DNA of 64,000 nucleotides from a bacterium (GTDB lineage Bacteria > Myxococcota_A > Bradymonadia > UBA7976 > UBA1532). Location of the stretch: the NCBI GenBank assembly GCA_030426085.1, contig JAUHYW010000021.1:62001-126000 (forward strand). The letters are read 5' to 3'. Below are positions 3,264 to 31,562 of this stretch, piece after piece; within the stretch, counting starts at the first letter, position 1; every line of letters starts with the position of its first letter. The notes under the pieces are model-generated. The model was not told the origin of the DNA. It did no database searches and worked only from the letters and a program-made list of their open reading frames with translations. Both the position numbers and the translations under genes were made by a program.

Positions 3264-6200
3264 TCAACCCGGATCGACAGACCTCAGCAAACGCTGAATC
3301 CGCTCCCGCTCCCCCGGGGTCAGGCGCGCGTCGTGCCCGGACGGGCGCCGCTGTATCAGCACCCGCAGCGCCGACAGCCACGCCAGCTCATCGGTCTCGG
3401 CCGGGCGCCCGACCGCGGCCGGATCGGCATCGGCGAGCCGCAGCGCGCGGTCCCAGTCACCGGCCAGGCGCCACTGGCGATAGGCGTCGGCCGGCATGCC
3501 GGCGCGCTCGAACGCCCCCGCCGCGTCCGCGTGCCGCTCGCGGGCCGCGTGCAGCTTCGCGGTGATGGCCGGCGCCTCGGGGGCGATCCCCGCCGCGACC
3601 GCCTCGGCCCCGCCGAGGTCATCTGCGGACAGCAACGTCTCGACGCCTCGACACCGAAGGCGGCGCACCTCGGCCGCGACGTCGCCCCGAAAGCCGGTCA
3701 GAGGCAGCCATGGCCCGATGTCGGCGCGCCGAGCATTGGCGCCGTCCGGCCGCTCGGCCAGAGCGCGGATCTGCCCCCGGAGCCGTTGATGCACCGGCGC
3801 CAGCGACGCCCGAATCCACTCGCCCTCGCCCCCGAGCGCGAGGGTGGCCTCGAACAGCTCGACCGGTGAGGCCGCGCGCTCGGCCGTCCACTCGTCCAGC
3901 GCGTCAGCGGCCGCCCGGTGACCGGGGGCCTCCATCTCCCCCACCGTCGCGTGCATCGCCGCGACGACGTCAACCCGGTTCACCCGCTCGGGCAGGCCAT
4001 CGACCAACAGCCGGGCCCCCGTGGCCAGCAGCGTGAGACGGGCGGCTCGGCGCAGATCTGCCGACGCCACCCCGTTGGGCAGCGACGGGTCCCCCAGCAG
4101 CAGCGCCGCTTGACTCGCCCGGCGCCAGGCCCTGCGGGGGTTGCTCTCGACGAGCGCGCGGGCGTCGTCCATGCGCCGCCGCACGCGATCTTCGGGCAGG
4201 ATGTCGGCGTCGGTGAAGTGTTCGAGCAGATCCTGCGGATCGCACGGCACGGGATCACCCAGCAGCGTCCGGCTCGCGTGATGCGCGTCGTGGTCGGCCG
4301 CGACATCGAGGAAGGCCAGGGTCTCGGTGGCCCGGCTGAGCGCCACCCGGAACTGGTCGATGCGAGTGCGCACCGCCTGCGCGAACGGACCGTGGGTCTG
4401 GTCCCGAGCCTCGCGCAAGGTCGCGCGCATGAAGCCGCCGGGATCGATCACGACGACCGACTGATACTCCAGCCCCTTGGCCTCGGCGGGGGTGCGGACC
4501 GCGTCGTGCAACTCGACCGGCAACCAACCGGGACGCTCGGCCCGAGGCGAGAGCAGGATGAGGCCCGGGTCGTCGGCGTCGTCCAGGTCCGCGATGAGCT
4601 CCCGCGCCGCTGCCGTGGTCGACGCGTCGACGTGGTACAGGAACGCTTCCGCGTGCTGGCCACGCTCATCCCGAGACTGCTTCGTGGGGCGATGCCGCTT
4701 CGCGAGGGTCCCATACATCTCTGATGCCCGCTGCACGACGGCGGCGATGCGCGCCGGGCTGCGCAGGTTCTCCTCCAGCCGGAAGTCCCGCGGCGGGTGC
4801 AGCTTGTCGGTGACCAGGTTCGACAGCGGCCCCCAATCGAAGCCCGAGGGGCGTACGGTCTGGCCATCGTCCCCCGCCACCAGCAGCCAGGGGGCGTGGC
4901 CCCGCGCCCGCCCGATGGCGCGGCACAGCTCCACGACCACCGCCGCGTCGAGCAGGGTCAGGTCCTGCACCTCGTCGACGACGATCCGGTCGAAGGCCTC
5001 GTAGCCCGGCGGCAGCTCATCGGCCCGCAGCCGCTCGATGGCCGCGGCGGCTGCCACCAGCTCGGGGAAGACCCGGGCCGGCGCGTCCCCGGTGAGTCGA
5101 GCCAGCGCGCGCGCTGCGTCCCGGGCCATGGACCGCTGAACTTCCCGCCCCCGCAGGGCGATGGTCGCCTCTTCACTCAAGCGAGGGAGGCCATCGCGCA
5201 CTTCGACGCCCTCGGCGCCGGGCACCGCTCGCCCCACCAACATCGCCCGCACCTCGGCGAAGAGGGCCGCCTCGTGCCCCTGCCAGCCACCGAGGTCGAA
5301 CGCCGGGCCCAGCGCTCTGAAGAAGCGCCGTCGGCTCTCGGGCAGGCGGATGCGGACCGGGTCGCTGCCGGTCAGCTCACCGAGCAGAGTGACGTGGTCC
5401 AGCGTCTCGACGCCTACGCCGACCGGAGCGAAGACCGCGAAGCGCTGCCGGGCCACCGAGACCAGCTCACGAGACCACGACAGGTAGAGCACCCGCTGAT
5501 CGGCCCGGGTCTCGAGCGCCCGCCACAGCACCGTCGTCTTGCCCGACCCCGGGCGGCCCTGAACGAAGCGAACCGGATCGCTGGCTTCGATGAAGCGCAC
5601 CTGATCGACCGTCCACGGTGGGCCGATGTAGGCGTCGTCCTCGACCTCGGCCGGACCGACCCTCAGATAGTCATCCCAGCCCCCCGCAGCGAGCGGCTTG
5701 TGATCGTCGTGATGCCGCACCGCGCGCACGAAGATGTCGCCCGCCTCGCCGCCGAGCGCCTTGACCGGCCGATGACCCTGCTCGGTCCACCACAGGTAAT
5801 ACTGCATGCCGTTGTTGCCGCCGAAGGCCGTGCGCCGCCAGCCGCGGTTGTCCGGATCGGCGCAGCCCTTGGTGTGGGACGTGACGCCGTGGGCCGCGAG
5901 GTGGGCCAGCCGCAAGCTCAACGATCGGGCAAAGCGGGGCCGTCTCTGGATGCCATTCAGGACGTCGCCGTGGACGAAGACGCGCCGCCCATCGGGCTCG
6001 AAACGCAAGGACGCGAGCGGCGTGGGCGGGTCTGAGCGGAACTCGAGCGCCGGCTCTGGTTCGGGCTCCGGCTCGACCGCGAGCGGCGCGCTCGGCGCCT
6101 CAGCCCGCTCGACACCGAAGTGTCGGGCCAGGATCCGCTGCTCGGCGCCGTCGAGCGCATAGTCTGCATCACCCACCCGCCCCCCGGGCTTGTGGAGTCG

Positions 6201-6278
6201 CTGCCGCGCCGCCTTCTTCACGTCGGCGGTCTTGAGACCGTACTTGCGCGCGAACTGTGCGATCGTCTTGCTGGCCAT
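3264..6278 (-). CDS. UvrD/Rep-like superfamily 1 helicase with extra N- and C-terminal regions
   Basis: A 1004-residue ATPase with the SF1 motif series: Walker A GRPGSGKTT near residue 240, Walker B IVVDEVQDL near 431, GDDGQT (motif III), EENLRSP (motif IV), EAKGLEYQSVVV (motif V) and RVALSRATE (motif VI, near 643). SF1A members move 3'-5' on DNA or RNA. The first 55 residues (KYGLKTADVKKAARQRL) resemble a small helical nucleic-acid-binding domain such as IF2-N; this is followed by an acidic Glu/Pro linker and a domain of unknown type up to about 230. The last 330 residues look like helical repeats. It is not a canonical UvrD, Rep or PcrA. It has its own promoter but lies downstream, on the same strand, of the ARPP/TROVE pair. 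Confidence 0.85.
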   Translation of the reverse strand: MASKTIAQFARKYGLKTADVKKAARQRLHKPGGRVGDADYALDGAEQRILARHFGVERAEAPSAPLAVEPEPEPEPALEFRSDPPTPLASLRFEPDGRRVFVHGDVLNGIQRRPRFARSLSLRLAHLAAHGVTSHTKGCADPDNRGWRRTAFGGNNGMQYYLWWTEQGHRPVKALGGEAGDIFVRAVRHHDDHKPLAAGGWDDYLRVGPAEVEDDAYIGPPWTVDQVRFIEASDPVRFVQGRPGSGKTTVLWRALETRADQRVLYLSWSRELVSVARQRFAVFAPVGVGVETLDHVTLLGELTGSDPVRIRLPESRRRFFRALGPAFDLGGWQGHEAALFAEVRAMLVGRAVPGAEGVEVRDGLPRLSEEATIALRGREVQRSMARDAARALARLTGDAPARVFPELVAAAAAIERLRADELPPGYEAFDRIVVDEVQDLTLLDAAVVVELCRAIGRARGHAPWLLVAGDDGQTVRPSGFDWGPLSNLVTDKLHPPRDFRLEENLRSPARIAAVVQRASEMYGTLAKRHRPTKQSRDERGQHAEAFLYHVDASTTAAARELIADLDDADDPGLILLSPRAERPGWLPVELHDAVRTPAEAKGLEYQSVVVIDPGGFMRATLREARDQTHGPFAQAVRTRIDQFRVALSRATETLAFLDVAADHDAHHASRTLLGDPVPCDPQDLLEHFTDADILPEDRVRRRMDDARALVESNPRRAWRRASQAALLLGDPSLPNGVASADLRRAARLTLLATGARLLVDGLPERVNRVDVVAAMHATVGEMEAPGHRAAADALDEWTAERAASPVELFEATLALGGEGEWIRASLAPVHQRLRGQIRALAERPDGANARRADIGPWLPLTGFRGDVAAEVRRLRCRGVETLLSADDLGGAEAVAAGIAPEAPAITAKLHAARERHADAAGAFERAGMPADAYRQWRLAGDWDRALRLADADPAAVGRPAETDELAWLSALRVLIQRRPSGHDARLTPGERERIQRLLRSVDPG

Positions 6279-6300
6279 ACCCTGCCCATCTCATCGAGGT

Positions 6301-6314
6301 CTCGGACATCCGAG
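6301..6314. promoter_or_regulatory. Perfect palindrome in the helicase leader
   Basis: CTCGGACATCCGAG is a perfect dyad with 6-base arms. It overlaps the end of the putative -10 element and lies 23 bases before the helicase start, a position suited to repression. Function is inferred from position and symmetry only. Confidence 0.4.
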
Positions 6315-6341
6315 TATGCTCATATGTCATATGCGAAACAA
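6313..6341 (-). promoter_or_regulatory. Candidate sigma70-type promoter of the helicase gene
   Basis: On the minus strand TTGTTT (6341-6336), a 17-base spacer and CATACT (6318-6313) precede the helicase start. The surrounding 60 bases are strikingly AT-rich for this window. The spacer holds two tandem CATATG palindromes (within 6321-6333), which could be an operator. Confidence 0.45.
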
Positions 6342-6389
6342 GCCGTGGAGCATGACCCGCAATAACAGTGGGGGGCCGGGCCCCGCGCC

Positions 6390-7544
6390 TCACCGGCGAA
6401 ACTCGGGCGCCAGCATCCACCCCAGCTCGGCGTGCTTCAGCGCCCGGCAGAGCTGCTCCAGCGTCTGGCCCCGGGCCGCGGCGGCGGCGGGCAGGTGCCA
6501 TTGATGGCGCGCCAGATGGCGCAGCAGGAACCCGCGCCGGCGCTGGCCCCGCGTCACCCGATAGGTCTTGAGATACTCGACCGTGCCATCGTCCCGCACG
6601 ATGGCTTCGCCGATGTGATGCGCGTCGCCGGGCCCGTCGCTCCGAAAGCCGGTGTCGAACCGCACCAGATCGAGGGGCCCCATGCGATACGCCCGCTCGC
6701 TGACGAGCGGCCGACCCAGGAGCCCGGCGGCCAGCCCCGCCTCGACCCGGGCCCAGGCGGCGCGGGCGTCGGCGAGGGCGACGCCGAGGGTGTTCCAGTC
6801 GGTGACCGCCGCGGCGTCGAGCGTCACCGGCGCGGGCGAGGCGCCGGGGGCGTAGCGGGCGCTCCAGGCGAGCATCGGGCCGTAGAAGTCGTCGACCAGC
6901 GCCCGGTGAAGGCGGCGGTAGTCATCGGGGTGGCTCACCACGGTCGCCGAGGCGAACTGCCCGCCGACGAAGATGAGCACCCCGCACTGGCCTTCGTGGA
7001 TCTCGAAGAGCCGCAGCGCCCCGTCGAGGTCGGGCAGCGCGTAGCCCGGCGTGACCCACTCGGCGCGCGGCGTCAGGCCCCGGCGCAGGACCCGCTGGCT
7101 GTAGTGCTCCCAGGCGATGTCGGGGCCGCCGAAGTAGAGGCTGAGGAAGCCTTCCATCGCGACGTGCAGCGGCAGCAGGCGCAGGCGGCTCTGGGGGCCG
7201 CGCTGCTCGCGCTTGATCATCCGATGGTGCACCTGGAAGAGCCGCGGCGGGTGCTTCGAGCGGCGGGCGCCGCCGTCGAGCATCGTCTCGCCGAGCACGT
7301 CGGCGCCGTCCTTCGTCCAGCCGACGACGAGCCCGTGGGGCACGTAGCCCCCGTATATGGCCTTGTTCGGCGCGCCGGGGCGCCCGCCGGTGTCGACGAG
7401 GGCCAGGGGGCCGTCGGTGCGCCGCAGGCCGAGGCGCAGGTCGCCCCGGGGCGCGCGGCGGATGAGGGGCACGAGGCGCACCCGGCCCCAGACCTGGGCC
7501 ACCTGCGGTTCGAGGCCCTTCAGGCTCAGCGCGTCGAGGCTCAT
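6390..7544 (-). CDS. ARPP-like protein of unknown function, partner of the TROVE-like gene
   Basis: A 384-residue soluble protein beginning MSLDALSLKGLEPQ. Its ATG (7542-7544) overlaps the upstream TGA as ATGA, which fixes the start and implies coupled translation with the TROVE-like protein. The opening pattern (VAQVWGRVRLVPLIRR) and the central FEIHEGQCGVLIFVGGQFAS stretch recall the ARPP-2 group, a domain family I remember as co-occurring with vWA/TROVE proteins in conflict-type gene neighbourhoods; that link is from memory, not a search. No enzyme motif, signal peptide or membrane segment is visible. The C-terminal 60 residues are helical and Arg-rich, compatible with RNA binding. Confidence 0.7.
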   Translation of the reverse strand: MSLDALSLKGLEPQVAQVWGRVRLVPLIRRAPRGDLRLGLRRTDGPLALVDTGGRPGAPNKAIYGGYVPHGLVVGWTKDGADVLGETMLDGGARRSKHPPRLFQVHHRMIKREQRGPQSRLRLLPLHVAMEGFLSLYFGGPDIAWEHYSQRVLRRGLTPRAEWVTPGYALPDLDGALRLFEIHEGQCGVLIFVGGQFASATVVSHPDDYRRLHRALVDDFYGPMLAWSARYAPGASPAPVTLDAAAVTDWNTLGVALADARAAWARVEAGLAAGLLGRPLVSERAYRMGPLDLVRFDTGFRSDGPGDAHHIGEAIVRDDGTVEYLKTYRVTRGQRRRGFLLRHLARHQWHLPAAAAARGQTLEQLCRALKHAELGWMLAPEFRR

Positions 7545-9022
7545 CGGTCGGCTCTCTTCTCTCGCCAGCGGTCGATCATGCGCCGGGCGCGGGCGTCGAG
7601 CCACGCCGTGAAGGCGGCGAGGTCGTCGGCGCCGTCGACGAAGCGGGCCAGCCGCAGGGCGAGGGGCAGATCGTCGGCGGTGCGCACGCCGACGGTGGTG
7701 ATGTGCGGGCCGAGCGCGCGGGGGCTGTAGGTCTCGGGGTCGAAGACGGGGTTGAGGTGGATGACCGGGGCGGTGGCGCCGAGGCGGCTGCGGGCGACGC
7801 GCACGACCTCGTCGGCCGAGCCGGGGCCGACGTTCTCGTAGCCGTCGCTGATGATGAAGACGGCGTCGGGCCGGCCGGCGAGGGCCACGATCAGCGGGCG
7901 GGCGAGGTCGGTCTGGCCGAAGGGGGCGACGCCGAGGGGCACATGATCCTCGGAGAGCGGGGGCGTCGTCCAGTGGGCCGAGTAGCGGTCGCCGTGGCGG
8001 GCGGCGGCGGCGCGCAGGGCCTGCTCGACGGCGAGGCCAACGGCCAGCGGGCGGTCGCGCTTCTCGCGGCTGCCCCGGGTCGAGCGGCTGCGGTCGACGA
8101 CGGCGGCGATCGATCCCAGGCGGGGCAGGCGGGCGGCGATGCGGGCGGCAGCGGCGGCCATCGGGGCGGCGAAGTCGGGGCGCTCCTCGGGCGGGCGGGA
8201 CAGGCCGAAGAGCACGAGCCGGGTCAGATCCATACGGGCGAGATCCAGGCGCTCCAGCTCGGCGCCGGCCGCCCGGGCGCTGGCCTCGATCCGCTCGCGC
8301 TCGCGGCGGGTCATGCGCTGCTCGATGCCTTCGAGGAACTGCTTGCGCTTCATGCCGTGGTGGGCGGCGAGGCCCTCGGCGACGGTCATCGGCAGGTCGA
8401 AGATCTTGCGCTTGTCGTAGTGGGCCTGACGCCAGGTCTCGAGCAGCGGGTTGTCGAACGGCGCCTCACCCCGGCGGTCGGCGGCGGCGCGGTACAGGAT
8501 CCGGCCGATCTCGCCCGGCGGCGCGAGGTGGGTGTGGCGGGTGGCCGCCTTGAGGCCGCTGCGGTACTTGAGCGCGTCGAAGGCCAGATCGCGGCCGGCG
8601 AGCCAGGTGCGCACGGTGGCCCGGGCCCGGCGGTTGTTGATCCGCGAGGCGCGCAGGCGGCGGAAGAGCTTGTAGACCCGGGGCGGGGGCAGCTCGGCGA
8701 GGGCGGCGGCGATGAGCTCGCCCTCGGCGGCGCGGGCGGCGGCGTCATCGGGGGATCCCGCGGCGAGCAGGCCGTGCACGATCATCGCCCGGGAGAAGTC
8801 GTTGAGCCCGGCGGCGAGGCACAGCGCGTAGAGCCGGCGGTGGTTGCCCCGCACGTAGTCGTGCAGGAACGCGATCGAGACCGCCTGCTCGCCGCGCTCG
8901 GCGTAGTACTCGGCCTGCCCGGTGCAGGCGAAGCCCGAGGTGACGAAGGCGGCGATGTCTTCCCGGTCGACGCGGGCCCGGCGGGCGGCGGCGTCTTCGG
9001 CGGGCGCGGGCTGGGGGGTCAT
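7541..9022 (-). CDS. TROVE/Ro60-like protein with C-terminal vWA domain
   Basis: A 493-residue protein. The first 300 residues are a helical-repeat array with many basic residues, as in the TROVE ring of Ro60, which binds misfolded and Y RNAs. The rest is a von Willebrand A domain with a MIDAS start DRSRST near residue 310 and the later IISDGYEN strand. Bacterial Ro60 homologues (Rsr) act with Y RNA and exonucleases in RNA quality control. The start at MTPQPAP is chosen because the 22 upstream in-frame codons are not protein-like; no strong Shine-Dalgarno is seen. It is translationally coupled to the ARPP-like gene. The 125 bases upstream (9023-9147) contain no visible gene but could hold a promoter or a small RNA. 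Confidence 0.8.
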   Translation of the reverse strand: MTPQPAPAEDAAARRARVDREDIAAFVTSGFACTGQAEYYAERGEQAVSIAFLHDYVRGNHRRLYALCLAAGLNDFSRAMIVHGLLAAGSPDDAAARAAEGELIAAALAELPPPRVYKLFRRLRASRINNRRARATVRTWLAGRDLAFDALKYRSGLKAATRHTHLAPPGEIGRILYRAAADRRGEAPFDNPLLETWRQAHYDKRKIFDLPMTVAEGLAAHHGMKRKQFLEGIEQRMTRRERERIEASARAAGAELERLDLARMDLTRLVLFGLSRPPEERPDFAAPMAAAAARIAARLPRLGSIAAVVDRSRSTRGSREKRDRPLAVGLAVEQALRAAAARHGDRYSAHWTTPPLSEDHVPLGVAPFGQTDLARPLIVALAGRPDAVFIISDGYENVGPGSADEVVRVARSRLGATAPVIHLNPVFDPETYSPRALGPHITTVGVRTADDLPLALRLARFVDGADDLAAFTAWLDARARRMIDRWREKRADR

Positions 9023-16040: not shown

Positions 16041-17986
16041 GCCCCCGGGCCCACCGCATCGTACGCCGGCTGCTGCTCGCCGGGGGGATCGCCCTGGCCG
16101 TGGGCCTCGTGCCGGCCATCATGACCTGGGACTACATCCAGAACGACCCCGACTTCTGCACCTCGTGCCACATCATGGACGACGCCTACGAGCGGTGGGC
16201 GGACAGCCCGCACGCCCAGGTGAACTGCCACACCTGCCACCCGGGCGATCTGGCGAGCAACCTGCACCAGCTCTGGGTGCAACTCACCGACCGGCCGACC
16301 GAGGTGGAGAAGCACGCGGTGGTGCCGGCGGACATCTGCGGGCAATGCCACCTCGGCGAAGACAGCCGGTGGCCGGTCGTGGGGCAGACCGCGGGGCACG
16401 CGCTGCACTACGGCGAGCACGAGATCGAGTGCGTCGAGTGCCACGCGCCCGCGATCCACGAGTTCATCCCCACCGACCAGATGTGCCAGAAGTGCCACCC
16501 CAGCGAGGTCGTGGGGCTGAGCGCGATGCAGCGCTTGCACTGCGGGAGCTGCCACGCCTTCCTCGCCGCGCCCGAGCGGGGCATCGTGCCCGACGACGCC
16601 CGCTGCGCCGAGTGCCACGGGGCCGACGGCAGCGCGCCGCGGGCCTCGGCGTGGCACCCCGATCTGGACTGCGCCGGCTGCCACCCGGTGCATGATGATC
16701 CGGCCTCGGTCGCCGCCGATCCGGGCGTCGAGCACCGCCGGGGGCGGGCCCTGCCGTGCACCGGCTGCCACGCCGACGCCGCCGCGCTCGACATGCCGCC
16801 GGGCCACGGCTGCGCCGACTGCCACGAGCCCCACGGGGGCGGCTTCGAAGAGGCGGTCTGCCGCGACTGCCACCGGCCGGTCGCCGCGCAGCAGCCGCCC
16901 CGGGATCACCACGCCTGCGCCGACTGCCACCCGCCGCACGCCCCCGACGTGAGGCCCGCCGACCGCTGCGCCGACTGCCACCGGGGCGACGAGGTCCTGG
17001 CCGCGGGCACCCCGGTCGAGGCCCACCGGGCGTGCGAGAGCTGCCACCAGCCGCACGAGGCGGGCCCGCCGGATGGGCCGGCCTGCGCCCCGTGCCATAC
17101 GAAGCAGAGCCGGCAGGCGGCGGTGGCCGGCGTCGAGGCCCACCGGCAGTGCGCCGGCTGCCACGCGGTGCACGCCCCGGCGTCGGTGCGAGCCTGCGGG
17201 GGCTGCCACCCCGATCAGCGACAGGCCACCGCCGAGGCGCCCCGGGCGCACCGCAACTGCGCGACGTGCCATCCGCTGCACGGCAGCCCCCGGTCGGGCG
17301 TGGGCCCGTGCCGGGGGTGCCACGTCGAGCAGGCCCGCGCCGCCGATCGCCAGCCGCCGGAGCACGGCCGCTGCGCCGACTGCCACCCGCCCCACCGACC
17401 GACGCGGCCCACCGAGGCGGTCTGCGCCGAGTGCCACGCCGGCCAGCGCGCGGCCGTCGCCGCCGAGCCGCCGGCCCACCAGCGCTGCGGGACCTGCCAC
17501 GCGTGGCACGCCCCCGGCTTGCGGGCCGACGACGGCACCTGCGCCGGGTGCCATGCGGCGCAGGCGGCCGGGCGACCCGGGGCGCCCTTCGGCGAGATCC
17601 ATCAAGGCTGCGGCGGGTGCCACCCGGGGCATGGGACCCGGGCGGCTCATGACTGCGCCGGGTGCCATGTGCCCGCCGCCCGGGCCGTCTCGGGCGCGAT
17701 CCCGGCTCACAGCGACTGCGAGAGCTGCCATGGCTCGACCCATCAACCACAGGCGGGCGACCGGCGGGCGTGCGTCGACTGCCACGGTGATCCCACCGGC
17801 GTCGGCCTGCACCGCCTCGACGCCCACCGGGCGTGCGTCGACTGCCACGGCGGGCACCGCCCGCAGATCCCCGGGGCCGCCGCCTGCACCGGCTGCCACC
17901 CCCCCGAGAAGATCCAGCGACATCCGGCCGCCGCGCGGGGGGCGCAGAGCTGCCATGGATGTCACTCGTTCCGGAGGAACCGATGA
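16037..17986 (+). CDS. 30-haem NapC/NirT-like membrane-anchored cytochrome with tandem dihaem repeats
   Basis: A 649-residue protein with 30 CxxCH motifs. Residues 1-40 are an Arg-rich start and one membrane anchor ([17 protein letters not shown]) followed by [18 protein letters not shown] and NCHTCHPG, the NapC/NirT/CymA quinol-dehydrogenase pattern; its tetrahaem head covers roughly the first 140 residues. Six more haems link this to a long tail (about 256-635) of ten dihaem repeats of 36-40 residues, each AHRxCxxCHxxH then CxxCH. NapC-type heads take electrons from quinol in the inner membrane; the tail could carry them across the periplasm. Start and stop overlap both neighbours by ATGA. 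The family normally has 4 haems and about 200 residues, so this is a large extension. Confidence 0.85.
16802..17940 (+). repeat. Ten tandem dihaem repeats inside the 30-haem cytochrome
   Basis: Each unit encodes about 36-40 residues with two CxxCH motifs. The first is framed by His on both sides (for example [39 protein letters not shown]); the second lies about 10-15 residues later and is usually followed by a Gln/Ala/Arg-rich linker. The units are diverged at the DNA level, so the array is old rather than a recent slippage product. Confidence 0.8.
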
Positions 17987-20145
17987 GAGACCGATACTCG
18001 ATGGGCGCGATCGCGCTCGCGTGCTGCGCGGCGTTGCTCGCGTGCGAGGGCCCCGCGGGGCCGATGGGCGCGACGGGGGACGCCGGCCCGGCCGGGCCCC
18101 AGGGCGATCCGGGGCCCGCCGGTGAGGCGGGGCCCCAGGGCGAGGAGGGCCCCCAGGGGGATCCCGGCGAGCGGGGCCCCGAGGGCGCCCCCGGGGAGGA
18201 CGGCGACGAGGGTGAGCAGGGCCCGGCCGGCGAGGAGGGGCCCCAGGGCGAGGCGGGCCCCGAGGGTCCGGCCGGTCCGCCCGGTGAGGACGGCGAAGAC
18301 GGCCGGGACGGGTCGGACGGACGCAGCGGCTTCTACACCGATCCCGATCTGGTGGTCACCCCGACCGCCGTCGGGCTCGACGGCATGGGCCACGCCACGG
18401 TGGTCTTCACCCTGAGCGACGGCGTCGGGCGCCCGCTCGACGTGGATGGGCTGTTCACCCGGGGCCCGGTGGATCTGGCGTTCACCCTGGCCGCGGCCAC
18501 CGAGGACGGTTGGCACAGCTACATCGTGCGCGAGGCGGCCGCGGGGGACGTCGTGGTCGAGCAGGCCACGTCCGAGAGCGACGGCGCGCTCGAGATGCTG
18601 GCGTTCGGCGAGTACGCCTACACCTACGAGACCGCGGCCCCCGACGACGCGTCGCTCGACGCGGTGCACCGGGTCTCGATCGGCGCCCGCCGCACGCAGG
18701 ACGACGGCTTCCGGGTCGGTCACTCGGCCTCGCTCGACTTCGTGCCCACCGACGACGGCCCGCCGATCGTGCCCGACGACGCCCTCACCGATCGCTGCAA
18801 CCAGTGCCATCAAGGCATCGAGGGCCACGGCGGCCGGTGGACCGGGCTCGACGCCTGCGTCACCTGCCACACCCGGCAGACGACCGACCCCGAGAGCGGC
18901 AACACGGTGCAGATGGCGGTGATGCTGCACAAGATCCACCAGGGCGCGGGGCTGCCCAGCGTGCAGGCCGGCGAGCCGTATCGCATCATCGGCTATCGAG
19001 GCTCGGTGCACGACTACTCGGACGTGCACCTGCCCCGGCCGGCGAGCGACTGCCAGGCGTGCCACGGGCCCGATGCCGTGGCGTGGCCCGGGGCGACCGA
19101 CTCCGCCTGCGCCGCCTGCCACGACCGGACCGCTTTCTTCGCGCCGACCCCGCCGGGCTACGTGGCCCACCCGGGCGGCGTGCGCCCGCCGGACGACGCC
19201 AACTGCGTGGTGTGCCACCCCAAGAGCGGGGGGCTGTCGGGGGTCGCCGACGTGCACCGCGCGCCGACGCTCGACCCCGCGCTGGGGCGGGTCGGCCTGC
19301 GCTTCGTCATCGACGGGGTCGAGGGCGCGGCCCCCGGCGCGGCGCCCACGGTGCGCTTCCGGGTGCTCGACGACGCCGATGATCCGGTGGCGCTCGACGC
19401 CCTCGACAGCCTCGAGATCACCCTCGCCGGGCCCACCGGCGGGATCACATGGAGCCACACCACCCGCGACGTGCACCTGTCGGCCGAGGTCGACGGCGCG
19501 GGGCATGTCATCGAGCTGGATGGCATGGTGCCGGCCGACGCGACCGGCTCGGTGGCGGTGGGCATGGCCGGCTATCGCTACCTGCCCTATGGCGCCGAGC
19601 GGGCGGCCTCCATCGGGCGGGAGAACGGGGGCAACCCGGTGGTCTACGCCGCGCTGGACGACGGCCCGGCCGATCCGGTGCCCCAGGCCACCAGCGACGC
19701 CCGGTGCGACGCGTGCCACGGCGACGTCGCGGCCCACGGCACCTTCCGCACCGCGCTGCCCTACTGCCAGCTCTGCCACCACCGCGAGGCCACCGACGCC
19801 GCCCGCCGCCCGCCGGAGGCCGGGCCCCCGGCCAGCGTCGACCTGGGGCCGATGGTGCACCGCATCCACGCCGGGGCGACGCTGGCCACGCCGGTCGTGT
19901 ACTACGGCTTCGGCAATACGGCCCATGACTTCGGCGAGGTGCACTACCCCGGCGATCTGGCCCGGTGCGACGGCTGCCACACCGGCGATCGCTGGACCCG
20001 CCCCTCCACCGCGGCCTGCGTGAGCTGCCACGACGCGGACGCCGCCCGGGCCCACGCCGCGCTCGAGACGAGCGCCGAGGGCGTCGAGGCGTGCGCCGTC
20101 TGCCATGGCCCCGATCGGGAGTACGCCGTCGAGGCGGTGCACTGA
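17983..20145 (+). CDS. OmcA/MtrC-type decahaem lipoprotein with collagen-like stalk
   Basis: A 720-residue protein whose ATG overlaps the previous stop (ATGA). The signal ends AALLAC, with the lipidated Cys at residue 21. Residues 23-115 are 31 unbroken Gly-X-Y triplets rich in Glu, Asp, Pro and Gln. Then come a beta-rich domain (about 117-265), five CxxCH motifs (about 271-415), a second beta domain (about 425-570) and five more CxxCH motifs to residue 715. This beta-pentahaem-beta-pentahaem order is that of OmcA/MtrC cell-surface metal reductases. The collagen-like part would form a rod lifting the decahaem head off the outer membrane. It is the last gene of the operon and the most likely terminal reductase. 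Confidence 0.9.
18049..18327 (+). repeat. Collagen-like Gly-X-Y coding repeat (31 triplets)
   Basis: The stretch encodes 31 uninterrupted G-X-Y triplets directly after the lipobox cysteine, dominated by GPA, GPQ, GED, GEE and GDP. The charged X and Y positions fit bacterial collagens, which form stable triple helices without hydroxyproline. The implied trimer would bring three decahaem heads together. Confidence 0.9.
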
Positions 20146-25210: not shown

Positions 25211-25480
25211 TCAGTCGGCCCGCGCCTGCACCCATCGACTGGCGGTGAAGAGGGCCTGCCAGACGAGCGCGATCAGCTCGGGCGGCGCGGCGCCGGTCGC
25301 GGAGAGGCGGGCGACGATCTCCGCTTCGCGGGCGGGATCCCGGCCGGCGCAGCCCCGGGTGGCCTTGGCCTTCCCCAGCGCCTCGGCGATCTCGAGGCGC
25401 TGGGCGACGAGGCCCACGAGGCGGTCGTCGATGGCGTCGATCCGGCGGCGCAGGGCCTCGATGTCGGCCTCGCCGCTCAT
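25211..25480 (-). CDS. aroQ: Chorismate mutase, AroQ type
   Basis: An 89-residue all-helical protein with the AroQ pattern: EALRRRIDAIDDRLVGLVAQRL, then the catalytic lysine in GKAKATRG, and R-AREAEIVARL. It rearranges chorismate to prephenate in the cytosol. Length and motifs match stand-alone AroQ or the mutase domain of PheA/TyrA, but no dehydratase or dehydrogenase domain is attached. The ATG overlaps the stop of the U32-family gene (ATGA, 25477-25480), so the two are translated together. Because prephenate is reported to be needed for RNA hydroxylation by U32-family proteins, it may serve RNA modification here rather than amino-acid synthesis. Confidence 0.9.
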   Translation of the reverse strand: MSGEADIEALRRRIDAIDDRLVGLVAQRLEIAEALGKAKATRGCAGRDPAREAEIVARLSATGAAPPELIALVWQALFTASRWVQARAD

Positions 25481-28113
25481 CGGCCGGTCCGCGTCGTGCC
25501 CCGGGTCACCCCGAACTGCTCGTGCACCCGCAGCCGCTCGACGAGCGCGGCCGGGCTCAGCTCGCCGGCGAGCAGCGCCCGGTAGCCGACGAGCACCCGC
25601 AGGGCCTCCGCGGTGGTCTCGCGCACGAACTCCACCCGGAAGCGGCGCACGCCGGCGTCGAGCAGGCGGGGCACCAGCCCGGCGGCGCTCTGGGCCTGGG
25701 CGTTGTAGACCGTGTTGCGGCAGCCGGGGTCGACGATGACCGGGTGCACGTGGCCCCGATGGTCGCGCAGGCCGATCTCGTGGGTGGCGCAGGGCTGGCC
25801 GCAGCTCCGGATGTCGCGCCCGTTGCTGAGCAGGTGGGCGTAGACGCAGTGCTCGGTGTGGAAGGTCGGGATGTGGTGGTGCACGGTCACCGCGACGCGC
25901 CCGGCGGGGGCCCGATCGAGCAGCGCGAAGAGCTGGGCCGCGTCGAGGTCGTGGGCCGCGGTCAGCGTCTCGAGGCCCAGGCCGAAGAGATGATCAGCGG
26001 TCAGGGCGTTGGTGACGTTGAGCGAGAAGTCGCCGTGTACGATCGGGCGGGGCGCGTCGGGCTCGCCCAGGCCCTCGGCGAAGTGCACCACCGCGCCCCA
26101 ATGGCGCACGAGCACGCCGTCGGGCGCCAGCCGGGCGATGCGGCGGTCGAAGCCCTCTTCCCCGGGCTTCTGCACCCGGGGGGTGGCGACGTGCACGGTG
26201 AGCCCGGCGGCGCGGGCCCGCTCGACGGCGGCGGTGAGGCCGGCCCGCTCCATCCAGTCCAGCTCGACCTCGGGCAGCCCGGCGGCCAGCACGGCGTCGA
26301 GGTGGGCGTCGGTGCGGCACAGCGGGATCACGGCCGGCGTGATGTCGGACGGGGCGTCGCCGCGGCGGATCGTCTGCGCCCGCAGCCGGGGCAGCGCCGG
26401 CTCGGGGTCGACGGCGCGGGCCGCGCCCTGCTCGATGCGCGGCAGGAGCGTATCGACGAGGGCCCGCCGCAGGCGCTTGAGGGCCGAGACCGGCAGGTGC
26501 AGGCCGTCGGCGAGGCCGGCGACGTCGAGATCGAACAGGGTGAACGGGGTGCCGCCGAGCCCGCCCAGCTTGCTCTCGAGCAGCGCCCGATCGAGGCCCC
26601 GCCCGCGCGCCGGGGCGAGGTCGATCTCGCTCTCGACGGCGGCTCGATGACCCGCGGCCCGGCCCTCGAGCCGCAGCGGCCCGCCGCGCCGCCCGCCCAC
26701 CACGAGGCGCAGCGGGATCCGGCCGTCGATCCGACTCTCGATCAGCTTGCGGGCCCGCCGCTCGATGCGCGGGTCGCCCGTCAACCAGATGCGCTGCCCC
26801 GGCGCCACCCGGCTCAGGTCGGGTCCCGGTCGGCCGAACCCGAGCCGCCAGCGGCCCTCGCCCAACGCCTCGGCGGTGAAGATCGGGCCGCCCGGCTCGG
26901 CGGAGTCGGCCGGATCGCCCGCGTCGAAGACGACGCCCATGCCCGGCCGGGGGTCCGGCACGCGGGCCCGGGGTCCGGTGTTGTCGGCCTGCGATCCGCC
27001 GAGCAGCGTGAGGGCCGCGGCGCGCTGGCCGGCGGGCTCGGCCCTCCCCTGCCCCAGCGCGAGGCCGCCGCTGCGCACGCGTCCGTCGGGGTGAGGCTCG
27101 ACGATCACCGCGTCGCCGTCGACGCGCGCCACCCGGCCGAGCAGCGCGCCCCGGTGCTTGGGGAACCGCCCCTCGACGAGGTGCTGGTGGTCGGCGCCGC
27201 CCAGGAACCCGTCGGAGAAGCCCCGGCTGTAGATGATCTCCAGCTCGGCGAGATCGGCGGCGACCCGAGCCTCGTCGGCCGCGGTCGGGCCCCCGGGCCG
27301 GAGCAGCGCGTCGATCCACCGGCGGTAGGCCTCGACCGTGGCCACGACGTAGGCCGGGCCCTTGTAGCGGCCTTCGATCTTGAGGGTGCAGACGCCGTGC
27401 TCGATCAGGGCGGGCAGCGCCCGGAAGCCGGCCAGATCGCGGGGGCTGAGCAGGTAGCGGATCTCGCCGAGCGGGCGGGTCTCGCCGTCGACGACGAGGT
27501 CGTAGGGCATGCGGCACGACTGAGCGCACTGCCCGCGGTTGGCCGATCGGCCGCCCCACGCCTCGCTGGTGAGGCATTGCCCGCTCCACGACATGCACAG
27601 CGCGCCGTGCACGAAGACCTCGGTCTCCAACTCGGGATCGGCGGCGGCGATTCTGCCGATCTCGCGGACCGACAGCTCGCGGGGCAGCACGATGCGCCCG
27701 ACGCCGAGGCCCCGGGCGAAGCGGGCGCCTTCGACGCTGCTGATGGTCATCTGGGTGCTGGCGTGCAACTCGAGGTCGGGGCAGATCGACCGGGCGATGC
27801 GCGCGACGGCCGGATCCTGCACGATGAGCGCGTCGACCCCGGCCTCGGCGCAGGCTCGGACGAGAGCCTCGACGGTGGGCAGCTCGTCTTCGAAGACCAG
27901 GGTGTTGAGGGTGACGTAGGCCCGGGCGCCGGCCCGGTGGCACTCGGCGACGACGTCGGGCAGCGTGTGGCTGTCAATGCTCTCGGCCCGGGCGCGGGCG
28001 TTGAAGCCGTCGGCGAGGCCGAAGTAGACCGCGTCGGCGCCGGCGGCGAGGGCCGCGCGCAGGCTGCGCCGATCTCCGGCGGGGGCGAGGACTTCGGGGC
28101 GGTGGGGGGTCAT
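25477..28113 (-). CDS. U32 peptidase-family protein, probable RNA hydroxylase (RlhA/TrhP-like)
   Basis: An 878-residue cytosolic protein. The N-terminal third has the U32 pattern: LAPAGDRRSLRAAL, GADAVYFGL, and EVFVHGALCMSWSGQC near 165-180 followed by CAQSCR. The remainder matches the DUF3656-containing long form, with a second TIM-barrel-like part and a C-terminal Cys cluster (HCVYAH, RDIRSCGQPC, VDPGCRN). Relatives RlhA and TrhP are iron-sulfur proteins that hydroxylate C2501 of 23S rRNA or U34 of tRNA; the old name collagenase/peptidase is likely misleading. At 878 residues it is longer than RlhA (about 650). It overlaps chorismate mutase by ATGA, which supports a prephenate-dependent hydroxylase. 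Confidence 0.85.
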   Translation of the reverse strand: MTPHRPEVLAPAGDRRSLRAALAAGADAVYFGLADGFNARARAESIDSHTLPDVVAECHRAGARAYVTLNTLVFEDELPTVEALVRACAEAGVDALIVQDPAVARIARSICPDLELHASTQMTISSVEGARFARGLGVGRIVLPRELSVREIGRIAAADPELETEVFVHGALCMSWSGQCLTSEAWGGRSANRGQCAQSCRMPYDLVVDGETRPLGEIRYLLSPRDLAGFRALPALIEHGVCTLKIEGRYKGPAYVVATVEAYRRWIDALLRPGGPTAADEARVAADLAELEIIYSRGFSDGFLGGADHQHLVEGRFPKHRGALLGRVARVDGDAVIVEPHPDGRVRSGGLALGQGRAEPAGQRAAALTLLGGSQADNTGPRARVPDPRPGMGVVFDAGDPADSAEPGGPIFTAEALGEGRWRLGFGRPGPDLSRVAPGQRIWLTGDPRIERRARKLIESRIDGRIPLRLVVGGRRGGPLRLEGRAAGHRAAVESEIDLAPARGRGLDRALLESKLGGLGGTPFTLFDLDVAGLADGLHLPVSALKRLRRALVDTLLPRIEQGAARAVDPEPALPRLRAQTIRRGDAPSDITPAVIPLCRTDAHLDAVLAAGLPEVELDWMERAGLTAAVERARAAGLTVHVATPRVQKPGEEGFDRRIARLAPDGVLVRHWGAVVHFAEGLGEPDAPRPIVHGDFSLNVTNALTADHLFGLGLETLTAAHDLDAAQLFALLDRAPAGRVAVTVHHHIPTFHTEHCVYAHLLSNGRDIRSCGQPCATHEIGLRDHRGHVHPVIVDPGCRNTVYNAQAQSAAGLVPRLLDAGVRRFRVEFVRETTAEALRVLVGYRALLAGELSPAALVERLRVHEQFGVTRGTTRTGR

Positions 28114-28203: not shown

Positions 28204-28806
28204 TCAGTTGCTCTGGCCCGGGTACCAGTGCAGCGCCTCGGCGTGGTCGCGCAGCTTCTTGCGGGCTCGGTGCACCCGGGTCTTGACCGCGGGCATCGAG
28301 ATGCCCGCCTCCTCGGCCACCGCCCGCACCGGCTCCTGGTCGACGTAGCGCATCACGAAGAGGTCGTAGTCCCCGTCCCGGCCATCGCGCAGGAAGTCGT
28401 CCACCATCTGCAGGAGCTGCCGATCGGCCGCGGTGCGATCGGGGCTGGGGCCCGGCGCCGGGCGGTCGAACTCGAGCGCGTCGCCCACCGGCACCAGCCG
28501 CTTCTCACGGCGATGGCGCAGCCGCGCCGCGTTGATGACGATGCGGGCCATCCACGAGCCGAACCGGGCCTCCGAGCGGAACTGAGCGATGTGCCGCAGC
28601 ACCTGCACGCAGCTCTCCTGAGTCGCCTCCTGGGCCCGGTGCACGTCGCGGGTGTACTTGAGGGCGAGGCGGAACATCGCCTGATAGTGGCGGGCGATGA
28701 GGGTCTCGAGTGCCTCTCCATCCCCGTTCTTGGCGCGCCGCACGAGGGCGCGCTCCTCACTCAGAGACATCTTCTTCTGGCTGGCGGCGGCGGCGCGGGT
28801 GGCCAT
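28204..28806 (-). CDS. ECF-type sigma factor
   Basis: A 200-residue sigma70-family regulator. Region 2 spans about 15-100 (LVRRAKNGDGEALETLIARHY, RAQEATQESC, FRSEARFGSWMARIVINAAR) and region 4 about 130-190 (DLFVMRYVDQEPVRAVAEEAGISMPAVKTRVHRARKKL). The length and lack of regions 1 and 3 fit group 4 (ECF) factors, which direct RNA polymerase to stress or envelope regulons. No anti-sigma gene is adjacent. The ATG at 28806 follows GAGAGGAG; longer in-frame starts run through the promoter. A perfect sigma54 promoter lies upstream, suggesting a cascade. Confidence 0.92.
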   Translation of the reverse strand: MATRAAAASQKKMSLSEERALVRRAKNGDGEALETLIARHYQAMFRLALKYTRDVHRAQEATQESCVQVLRHIAQFRSEARFGSWMARIVINAARLRHRREKRLVPVGDALEFDRPAPGPSPDRTAADRQLLQMVDDFLRDGRDGDYDLFVMRYVDQEPVRAVAEEAGISMPAVKTRVHRARKKLRDHAEALHWYPGQSN

Positions 28807-28873
28807 GGCGGGCTCCTCTCGGGACGACTTTTTGCTCGGGGTGGACCGGTTCGCGGCTTCGCATCGGCTGTAG

Positions 28874-28889
28874 AGCAAGGGTGGTGCCA
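28874..28889 (-). promoter_or_regulatory. Sigma54 (-24/-12) promoter of the ECF sigma gene
   Basis: On the minus strand TGGCAC, five bases (CACCC) and TTGCT match the RpoN consensus TGGCAC-N5-TTGCW exactly. The expected start of transcription is about 28862, leaving a leader of roughly 55 bases before the ATG. Control by an enhancer-binding protein encoded elsewhere is implied. Confidence 0.75.
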
Positions 28890-29003
28890 AGAGCCGAAAC
28901 GGCGGCCGGTCGGGGCCGGCGGGGTGAGCGGGCGAATCGGGTCGGGGCATTCCGCCCCATGGGGTATCGGGCCACAGGCGGGAGGGGTCAGAATGCCCCC
29001 GGG

Positions 29004-31562
29004 TCATCCCCTCTCGAGCTGAGCGCGCAGGGTGCGGGCGGGGGTCAGGTGGGGGCGCAGCGCGAGCACCTGACGGATGAGATGGCGGGCTTCGCCGATG
29101 CGCCCCTGCTCGTGGCGCAGGCGGGCGAGGCTGAAGAGCACGTTGGGTCGCTCGGGGACCAGCGCGGCGGCTCGGGTCCACAGCGCGTCGGCCTCGGCCC
29201 TGCGATCGGAGACGTACAGCTCGAGCGCGGCCCGGTTGAGCGCGTCGGCGACCCCCGGCTCGTCGTCGCCGAAGTCGGCGGCCCGGGCGGCGAGCAGGTC
29301 GATCTGGCCCTCCTGGACGAGGGCGTTGATCGCGTCGAGGGCGGGGCTGGACGGGGGCACTTCGACCCGGACCGGCGCCCGGGACGGCGACGACGACCGC
29401 CGGGGCGACGCGCCGGGCCCGGGCGGGGCACCGTCACCGGGATCGAGCCAGTCGGGCATCTGCGATCCGGCCGCGCCCCCGGCGGCGCCCCGCTCACCGG
29501 CCATGCTGCCGGTGTTCGCCCGCGGCGTAGCCCCCGCCGCGGGCGGCGGCCCGCCCGCGGCGAGCATCGCCGTGGGGTCGAAGCCCCCGCTCGTCGGGCG
29601 CGCCCCTTCGGGCGGTGCGTTCGCGGCGGCGCGCTCGAAGGCCCCGCTGACCGGCGTCGCCCCCGACGGCCCGAGCATCGCGGTGGGATCGAACCCCCCG
29701 CTCGCCGGGCCCGCTGACGCTCCGCCCGGCTCCACTGCCGGCGGCGTCGGGCCCCTGCCCGCCGGCGGCGACTCGGCGAACTGCGGGATCTGGGGGCCGG
29801 TGGTACGCATCGAGCCGCTCGTCGACGGGCGCGGGCTGTCGGCGTAGAGGCTCGCCTCGTCGGCGCGCGGTGGCCCGTCCGACGACCGATCGAGGCCCGC
29901 CAGCGCGCCGCCGTTCGGATCGACCCGGCCGGCGACCGACTCGGTCTGGATCACACCGGCGGCCGCGTCACGGCACCAACCGACGAAGCGCGCGGCGTCC
30001 ATCGGGTTGCGGCTGCGCTCGATCAGATCGTTCAAGGCCCGGACGAGCCGCCCCCGAGCGTCGGTGCCGCCCACCGCCATCAGCCGGTCGAGCCGGGCGC
30101 GGATCTTGACCGCCCGGGCGTCGGTGCCCGTCCGGCGGCCGGCGATCACCTCGAGCACCGTGCGCCAGGTGGTCGGCCCCACCAACACCGTCCCCCCCTG
30201 ACGCGCCGCCCGCAGCAGCCCCACGAGCCGGGTCTGATCGACGTAGCCCATGGGCGCGACGGCTTTGAGCAGCTCGTCGATGGCCCGGCGCAGGAGCTGG
30301 TCGAGCGCGTTGCCCGGGTTGGGGATGACCTCGCGCACCGGGGCCAGACGACGCAGGTCGAGCCGGTGCAGGGCCGACGGCGGATCGAGCCGGGCCAGGG
30401 CCCGCACCAGCTCGGCCGGGCGCACGCCCTCGACCCCCGCCCGCAGCCCGAGCAGCGCCGTCAGCGCCGCCAGATCATGCGCGCTCGGCGTGCGCGCCCC
30501 GAGGCCTTCGAGCAGCGACGCCAGCACGAGCATGCGCACTTGATCGAGCGTGTCGTCGGCCTCGTCCTGGCTCAACACCCGGTTCGACAGCTCGGTCCGC
30601 ACGGCGGGCGACAGCGCCGAGAGCGGCCCCACCGGCACCCCGATCGCCCGGCTGAGGGCGTTGGCCAGCACGTCGATCTCGCCCGACCGCTCGCCGCCCG
30701 CCTGGAGCGTGACCTGAGCCGCCCGCCGGAGCTGGGCCATCACCCCGTTGTCGGCCTCGTCGCCCCCCGAACGGGCGAGTTCTTCGAGCCACGCCAGCAC
30801 GCCCTCCCGCCGGCCGTCGTCGGGCACCTGCATGCCGACCTCGACGCTGCGCTGGAGCTGGCTCGGATCGACCCCGTACTCCCCCGCCACGTCGGGCAGG
30901 TGCTGGGTGCCGACCCGCATCACGGTCATGGTCGCGCCGGCCAGCGCGGGGGTCATCGCGCCGCCGAGGGCCCGGTTGAAGTTGGCCGCGGGGTCGATGC
31001 GGGTGACCCGGCCCTGCTCCTCGGCGGCCGGCGTGCGCAGGCGCTCGGCGAGGCCCGAGAGTCGATCGCGCCAGTCGCCGTCGGTGTCGACCCACAGCCC
31101 CGGATCGGGGGCCAGCAGATCGGCTCCGCCCTGATCGAGCAGCGCCTTGCGGGTCACGCTGACGCCCATCTTGTGCAGCGCCTCGAGATCGCCGAGCACC
31201 TCGCCCGGCTCGAACGGCCAGCCGAGCAGGCTGTCGGCCCCGAGCTGCAGCGCCCGCCGCACGTCGTCCCGATGCCACGCCGGGTGGAAGCAGACCACGG
31301 GCCGCCGCCAGCGCTCCTTGATGCGGCAGATCAGCTCGATGGCGGCCTGGGGCTGCTCGGCGAAGTGGATGAGCACCGCGACGCAGCGGGGGTTGGCTTC
31401 GAGGCGGGCGATGGCCGCGTCGACGCTCGCCCCGCCGACCACCGGGATCGGCGGATCGCTGTCGGCGAACCGGCGCTTGACCTCCATCGCCGTCTGCCAG
31501 CCGACCGGCGCGGCGAGGTAATACGGCTGATCACCGGTGTTCTTGGCTGCGCGCTGTCCCAT
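29004..31562 (-). CDS. Large regulatory protein: degenerate receiver-like domain, helical middle, TPR tail
   Basis: An 852-residue protein of no recognised family. The N-terminal 130 residues look like a degenerate receiver fold (ASVDAAIARLEANPRCVAVLI, RWRRPVVCFHPAW, ALQLGADSLLGWPFEPGEVL) lacking the normal acidic phospho-site cluster. A long helical region follows to about 580. A low-complexity Pro/Gly/Ser linker then contains two copies of SGGFDPTAML, and the last 120 residues are TPR-like (ALNRAALELYVSDRRAEADALW, LFSLARLRHEQGRIGEARHL). It is cytosolic with no membrane segment. The start MGQRAAKN is chosen because earlier in-frame codons lie in the divergent promoter region. The linker resembles those of type IV pilus/gliding regulators in Myxococcota, but this is only a resemblance. 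Confidence 0.75.
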   Translation of the reverse strand: MGQRAAKNTGDQPYYLAAPVGWQTAMEVKRRFADSDPPIPVVGGASVDAAIARLEANPRCVAVLIHFAEQPQAAIELICRIKERWRRPVVCFHPAWHRDDVRRALQLGADSLLGWPFEPGEVLGDLEALHKMGVSVTRKALLDQGGADLLAPDPGLWVDTDGDWRDRLSGLAERLRTPAAEEQGRVTRIDPAANFNRALGGAMTPALAGATMTVMRVGTQHLPDVAGEYGVDPSQLQRSVEVGMQVPDDGRREGVLAWLEELARSGGDEADNGVMAQLRRAAQVTLQAGGERSGEIDVLANALSRAIGVPVGPLSALSPAVRTELSNRVLSQDEADDTLDQVRMLVLASLLEGLGARTPSAHDLAALTALLGLRAGVEGVRPAELVRALARLDPPSALHRLDLRRLAPVREVIPNPGNALDQLLRRAIDELLKAVAPMGYVDQTRLVGLLRAARQGGTVLVGPTTWRTVLEVIAGRRTGTDARAVKIRARLDRLMAVGGTDARGRLVRALNDLIERSRNPMDAARFVGWCRDAAAGVIQTESVAGRVDPNGGALAGLDRSSDGPPRADEASLYADSPRPSTSGSMRTTGPQIPQFAESPPAGRGPTPPAVEPGGASAGPASGGFDPTAMLGPSGATPVSGAFERAAANAPPEGARPTSGGFDPTAMLAAGGPPPAAGATPRANTGSMAGERGAAGGAAGSQMPDWLDPGDGAPPGPGASPRRSSSPSRAPVRVEVPPSSPALDAINALVQEGQIDLLAARAADFGDDEPGVADALNRAALELYVSDRRAEADALWTRAAALVPERPNVLFSLARLRHEQGRIGEARHLIRQVLALRPHLTPARTLRAQLERG

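Follow-up and report, generated by a model that had tools for sequence, protein, structure and literature searches.

An overlapping chorismate mutase–U32 gene pair that likely makes prephenate for RNA hydroxylation in an apparent phenylalanine/tyrosine auxotroph

Why would a bacterium with no detectable enzymes for converting prephenate toward phenylalanine or tyrosine keep a chorismate mutase (CM), and why is its gene joined to one encoding a U32-family protein? This question is raised by two minus-strand genes in the window, the 64,000-nucleotide stretch of DNA analyzed here, which is carried by a draft genome of 10.1 Mb with 95% completeness. The first gene of the pair (positions 25,477–28,113) encodes an 878-residue candidate RNA hydroxylase of the U32 family (RlhA type), and the downstream gene (25,211–25,480) encodes an 89-residue, stand-alone CM of the AroQ type. 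The initial annotation stated that the two genes overlap by ATGA, and this held: both open reading frames lie at these positions on the minus strand, and the overlap (25,477–25,480, minus strand) combines the TGA stop codon of the U32 gene with the ATG start codon of the CM gene. From sequence alone, this arrangement probably reflects translational coupling. We consider it likely, with a probability of roughly 0.83, that the coupled pair makes prephenate for RNA hydroxylation in an apparent auxotroph. What was observed directly, and is described below, is the structure of the two genes, the presence of their key residues, the gene content of the genomes, and the linkage and joint retention of the pair. 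The evidence for the supply line is nevertheless purely genomic, without biochemical or RNA data, and the enzyme activities are inferred. The U32 gene is directly preceded, in the same orientation, by a gene for a sigma-70 family (ECF-like) factor (28,204–29,181, minus strand). Elsewhere in the window, a plus-strand open reading frame of 770 residues (17,833–20,145) has a collagen-like Gly-X-Y stretch with numerous CxxCH motifs after it, and looks like a multihaem cytochrome whose N-terminal region is collagen-like.

In a Pfam search, the U32 protein matched Peptidase_U32 in two stretches, above the cut-off (276 bits, E-value 2.8e-82), as well as DUF3656 (PF12392; residues 442–557, positions 26,443–26,790, minus strand; 56.3 bits against a cut-off of 22.1, E-value 6e-15). 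The DUF3656 domain is typical of RlhA-type U32 members. Among the four E. coli U32 paralogues compared, RlhA gave the best and longest match (32% identity over 599 residues, 216 bits), followed by lower matches to TrhP (154 bits) and UbiU (125 bits). The protein scored below the NCBIfam equivalog cut-offs for TrhP (198.6 versus 534 bits), UbiU (165.3 versus 440 bits), and UbiV (59.1 versus 275 bits), and no solved structure matched it by sequence. Alignment placed the catalytic and Fe–S segment at Glu165, Cys173, Cys180, Cys196, and Cys200 (27,514–27,621, minus strand), each of which is 99% conserved among 130 distinct long U32 proteins. These residues correspond to Glu161, Cys169, Cys176, Cys192, and Cys196 of RlhA and to Glu162, Cys170, Cys177, Cys193, and Cys197 of TrhP. 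Glu162, Cys170, and Cys177 of TrhP, whose RlhA counterparts are Glu161, Cys169, and Cys176, are reportedly essential (PMC6599085). The alignment also revealed a C-terminal cluster of Cys756, Cys771, Cys775, and Cys798 (25,720–25,848, minus strand), which is 96% conserved in the same 130 proteins and in which Cys771 and Cys775 align with Cys611 and Cys614 of RlhA. By sequence, the protein is of the RlhA rather than the TrhP type, with 5-hydroxycytidine (ho5C) at C2501 of 23S rRNA as its inferred product, and the C-terminal cluster may constitute a second metal site.

An alternative is that the U32 protein uses prephenate on a substrate other than C2501: the wobble uridine of a tRNA, a different site in RNA, or, in the manner of UbiUV, a small molecule. 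In its favor, the protein is just 32% identical to E. coli RlhA, TrhP and UbiU are also clear homologs, and the known substrates of the superfamily include tRNA, rRNA, and ubiquinone precursors (PMC6599085, PMC11574389). It is countered by the best match to RlhA over 599 residues, the DUF3656 domain, the C-terminal cysteine cluster, and the scores far under the cut-offs of the TrhP, UbiU, and UbiV models. The balance tips modestly away from this alternative without dismissing it.

The CM protein matched CM_2 in the Pfam search (residues 10–85; 62.5 bits against a cut-off of 27, E-value 4.5e-17), and by sequence it matches known AroQ mutases among the solved structures. It agrees with the E. 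coli CM at all eight positions of the active site (Arg11, Arg28, Lys39, Asp48, Arg51, Glu52, Ser84, and Gln88). Across the 53 distinct U32-linked CMs identified below, Arg11, Arg28, Lys39, Arg51, and Glu52 are invariant and Asp48 is present in 52, while the C-terminal positions Ser84 and Gln88 are variable, in a region where the alignment is less certain. The active-site residues of both proteins are thus intact; catalysis of the conversion of chorismate to prephenate is inferred. As a separate observation, two CM-family proteins that are not linked to U32 (C126 of genome G044, locus L056, and C55 of genome G006, locus L046) lack the Asp48 and Glu52 equivalents by eye and resemble another, CM/PchB-like subgroup.

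The genome contains one CM_2 protein and one U32 (PF01136) protein, and these are the adjoining pair. The count covers CM_2-type mutases; AroH-type mutases were outside the search. The initial annotation had proposed looking for another CM devoted to aromatic synthesis, and no second CM_2-type enzyme exists in the genome. A second such mutase serving amino-acid synthesis is accordingly ruled out, and the enzymes that would act after it are missing in any case. Chorismate synthase was found, but profile searches of this 95% complete genome detected neither prephenate dehydratase (PDT) nor prephenate dehydrogenase (PDH), and a genome of the same genus likewise has chorismate synthase without PDT or PDH. 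A divergent PDT or PDH could escape such a search. CmoA, which turns prephenate into carboxy-SAM for cmo5U, is a known user of prephenate outside amino-acid synthesis; it was also undetected in the window genome. Since PDT, PDH, and CmoA were all undetected, the U32 protein is the only recognized prephenate user in the genome, with PheC-type enzymes outside the search. The gene content suggests that the host is likely a phenylalanine/tyrosine auxotroph. This is plausible because the Bradymonabacteria, cultured auxotrophs of the same phylum, reportedly lack complete pathways for both amino acids (PMC7460792); membership of the window genome in their class is inferred. That the CM is the sole one therefore strengthens the supply-line case, because without detectable PDT or PDH it is not needed for a recognized phenylalanine/tyrosine branch.

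A phylum-level sample of 377 genomes was searched for U32, CM, PDT, and PDH. In the 165 genomes lacking both PDT and PDH, 69 carried both CM and U32, 4 carried U32 alone, 7 carried CM alone, and 85 carried neither (Fisher p = 5e-33), leaving 11 exceptions with one gene alone. No association was found in the 182 PDT-positive genomes, for which the corresponding counts were 40, 1, 137, and 4 (p = 1). When 28 genomes with physically linked pairs were removed from the set without PDT and PDH, the association persisted (41, 4, 7, and 85; p = 5e-23), and co-retention is therefore not merely the joint deletion of neighboring genes. Within the class, auxotrophs that have chorismate synthase showed the same pattern (14, 0, 1, and 18; p = 1.8e-8). 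Judging from gene content, the 18 genomes with neither gene have lost the mutase while still being able to make chorismate.

The lone CM-only genome of the class set, G044, has a strong CmoA match, which is split between two contigs and falls slightly short of the curated cut-off. This brings in another alternative, in which prephenate feeds CmoA or a different small-molecule pathway while the U32 protein acts on something else. CmoA is known to use prephenate, and it is present in genomes G013 and G015 and, without U32, in G044. However, it is undetected in the window genome, and of the 80 genomes searched only 2 have a CmoA match that reaches the family cut-off. It therefore cannot account for the pattern as a whole, and we regard this alternative as very unlikely. 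Retention of CM for CmoA was rejected for the window genome and accepted as the likely explanation of the exception, G044.

The contingency tests take genomes as independent, without correction for phylogeny, and most of the genomes are incomplete metagenome-assembled genomes in which single absences may be artefacts. Co-retention could thus reflect shared ancestry or genome quality, with clades having kept or lost both genes for unrelated reasons. Related genomes do share states, and the within-class test of independent contrasts is underpowered: the chorismate synthase tree of the class offers only two to three well-supported contrasts, each of which is neutral or goes the expected way, and this number is too small to reach significance. 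Nevertheless, all three U32 changes on this tree coincide with CM changes, the fourth CM change being G044, and a single genus contains one genome with both genes (G013) and one with neither (G014). The disappearance of the association in PDT-positive genomes also argues against an ancestry effect. The main argument against pure ancestry is replication, as the CM and U32 pairs in the set without PDT and PDH span 22 family codes by hand count. These findings make the ancestry explanation unlikely.

Physical linkage was analyzed at U32 loci from auxotrophs and prototrophs, together with 80 loci from a scan of a genome collection, by seeking nearby mutase reading frames. In all, 53 distinct CMs were found no more than about 400 nt from a U32 gene, against about 0.03 expected by chance; this expectation is our own estimate, assuming one to three CMs per multi-megabase genome. 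In 31 distinct cases the CM lies downstream on the same strand, in 19 it is divergent and upstream, and in 3 it is convergent and downstream. A −4 overlap, with a possible CM start codon over the U32 TGA, recurs in 27 of the 31 same-strand pairs, all from other genomes. Given this recurrence and the 53 CMs near U32 genes, the ATGA overlap in the window is not a chance event. The divergent, head-to-head pairs occur in one Myxococcota clade and, elsewhere in the U32 tree, at 12 of 18 Planctomycetota loci, which indicates that the association arose more than once or underwent repeated rearrangement. In the family and order of the window genome, 12 of the 16 genomes carry the two genes, which are adjacent in 9 of the 12. 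The only PDT- and PDH-positive genome of this group, G006, has its CM in an aromatic operon and its U32 gene on another contig. Four prototrophs (G291, G338, G367, and G369) have three CMs each, one of which is head-to-head with U32; such an extra, U32-linked CM fits a dedicated supply even where amino-acid synthesis is intact. In many auxotrophs that carry both genes, the two are unlinked, and no CM–U32 fusion was found among the loci examined. The initial annotation held that its proposal would be refuted if this were the only CM in the genome and the adjacency were not conserved. The first half of that statement holds. The second fails, as the adjacency is conserved in the family, across a number of the phylum's families, and, in a different orientation, in Planctomycetota.

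Several individual loci merit description. At L119 (genome G002, about 5,272–7,559), a frameshift or an assembly error divides the U32 gene between two overlapping frames, with a mutase still adjacent, although the mutase match there is short. A Planctomycetota contig (L194, 3,622–4,974) carries three consecutive mutase-like reading frames beside a divergent U32 gene. Cultured Myxococcaceae (L175–L187; Corallococcus, Myxococcus, and relatives) have U32 genes 61–64% identical to that of the window, some with a convergent mutase reading frame immediately downstream, and are possible experimental hosts.

A remaining objection is that the CM serves phenylalanine/tyrosine synthesis through unrecognized, non-homologous downstream enzymes, and that its place beside U32 is incidental. 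Non-homologous routes exist, for example through a PheC-type cyclohexadienyl dehydratase. This explanation is supported by the CM being the sole one in the genome and by the reliance of PDT and PDH absence on profile searches. However, it leaves unexplained why CM tracks U32 just in genomes without PDT and PDH, why the −4 overlap is conserved, and why prototrophs have extra U32-linked CMs; the reported pathway gaps of Bradymonabacteria also speak against it. We consider it unlikely.

The preferred reading is thus that of a dedicated prephenate supply line for RNA hydroxylation, as the initial annotation had proposed; the comparative data support it, and the hydroxylation itself remains inferred. 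The apparent auxotrophy of the host, the joint retention or loss of the two genes, and the RlhA rather than TrhP type of the U32 protein go beyond that proposal. In this model, the two genes would form one translationally coupled unit, whose CM would convert chorismate to prephenate. The RlhA-type protein would use prephenate, presumably directly, as an oxygen donor or essential cosubstrate for RNA hydroxylation, most likely at cytidine C2501 of 23S rRNA, the site of RlhA in E. coli. The apparent auxotroph would keep its CM solely to supply the U32 protein, and channelling of the metabolite between the two proteins is possible. Prephenate is reported to be necessary for RlhA and TrhP (PMC6599085), and in UbiUV chemistry it is the reported hydroxyl source (Ferizhendi et al., PNAS 2024, cited in PMC11574389). 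The 2019 TrhP paper did not exclude an unknown prephenate-derived metabolite as the real requirement, and a 2024 review noted the lack of direct evidence for the U32 reaction. Auxotrophs with CM and U32 but without PDT and PDH are natural experiments on this question, which suggest that the required metabolite is prephenate itself or a derivative that neither of the two missing enzymes makes. Since PDT and PDH are absent, a need for their products, phenylpyruvate or 4-hydroxyphenylpyruvate, is unlikely in these hosts. A bolder reading, which we favor by a narrow margin, is that auxotrophs keep chorismate synthase and CM because prephenate is a dedicated oxygen-donating cosubstrate for RNA hydroxylation, and that the pair, coupled and possibly channelled, came together on several occasions in two or more phyla. 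This would suggest that U32 RNA hydroxylases need prephenate itself and not a product of PDT or PDH. If a mutase is retained for a single modification, RNA hydroxylation would presumably be important for fitness. With only two genes, the pair is also a compact system to reconstitute, and it warns that a CM in a genome does not imply phenylalanine/tyrosine prototrophy.

The prephenate requirement of U32 hydroxylases is already known. No report of a dedicated CM partner of U32 kept by auxotrophs was found in the partial literature searched, where "chorismate mutase" and "peptidase U32" are co-mentioned solely in the TrhP paper; earlier reports cannot be excluded. Among known systems, RlhA (YdcP), the ho5C2501 synthase of E. 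coli 23S rRNA, shares with the window protein the U32 and DUF3656 domains, the equivalents of Glu161, Cys169, and Cys176, and some of the C-terminal cysteines. It differs in length, at 653 residues against 878, the window protein having an extra C-terminal U32-like stretch, and in context, as rlhA is flanked by sutR and yncJ in E. coli while the window gene is coupled to a stand-alone CM. TrhP (YegQ), which acts in the prephenate-dependent hydroxylation of tRNA U34, shares the U32 domain, the essential residues, and, by inference for the window protein, the dependence on prephenate, but it has its own C-terminal domain where the window protein has DUF3656. UbiU and UbiV, which act in anaerobic ubiquinone hydroxylation, belong to the same U32 Fe–S family and use prephenate as oxygen donor (PMC11574389), a feature only inferred for the window protein; they differ in having a small-molecule substrate and in forming a heterodimer of single-domain proteins. 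The AroQ mutases of PheA, TyrA, and the stand-alone type have the fold family and active-site residues in common with the window CM. In contrast to them, the window CM is neither fused nor linked to PDT, PDH, or DAHP synthase, is linked to U32, and occurs without a recognized aromatic amino-acid branch.
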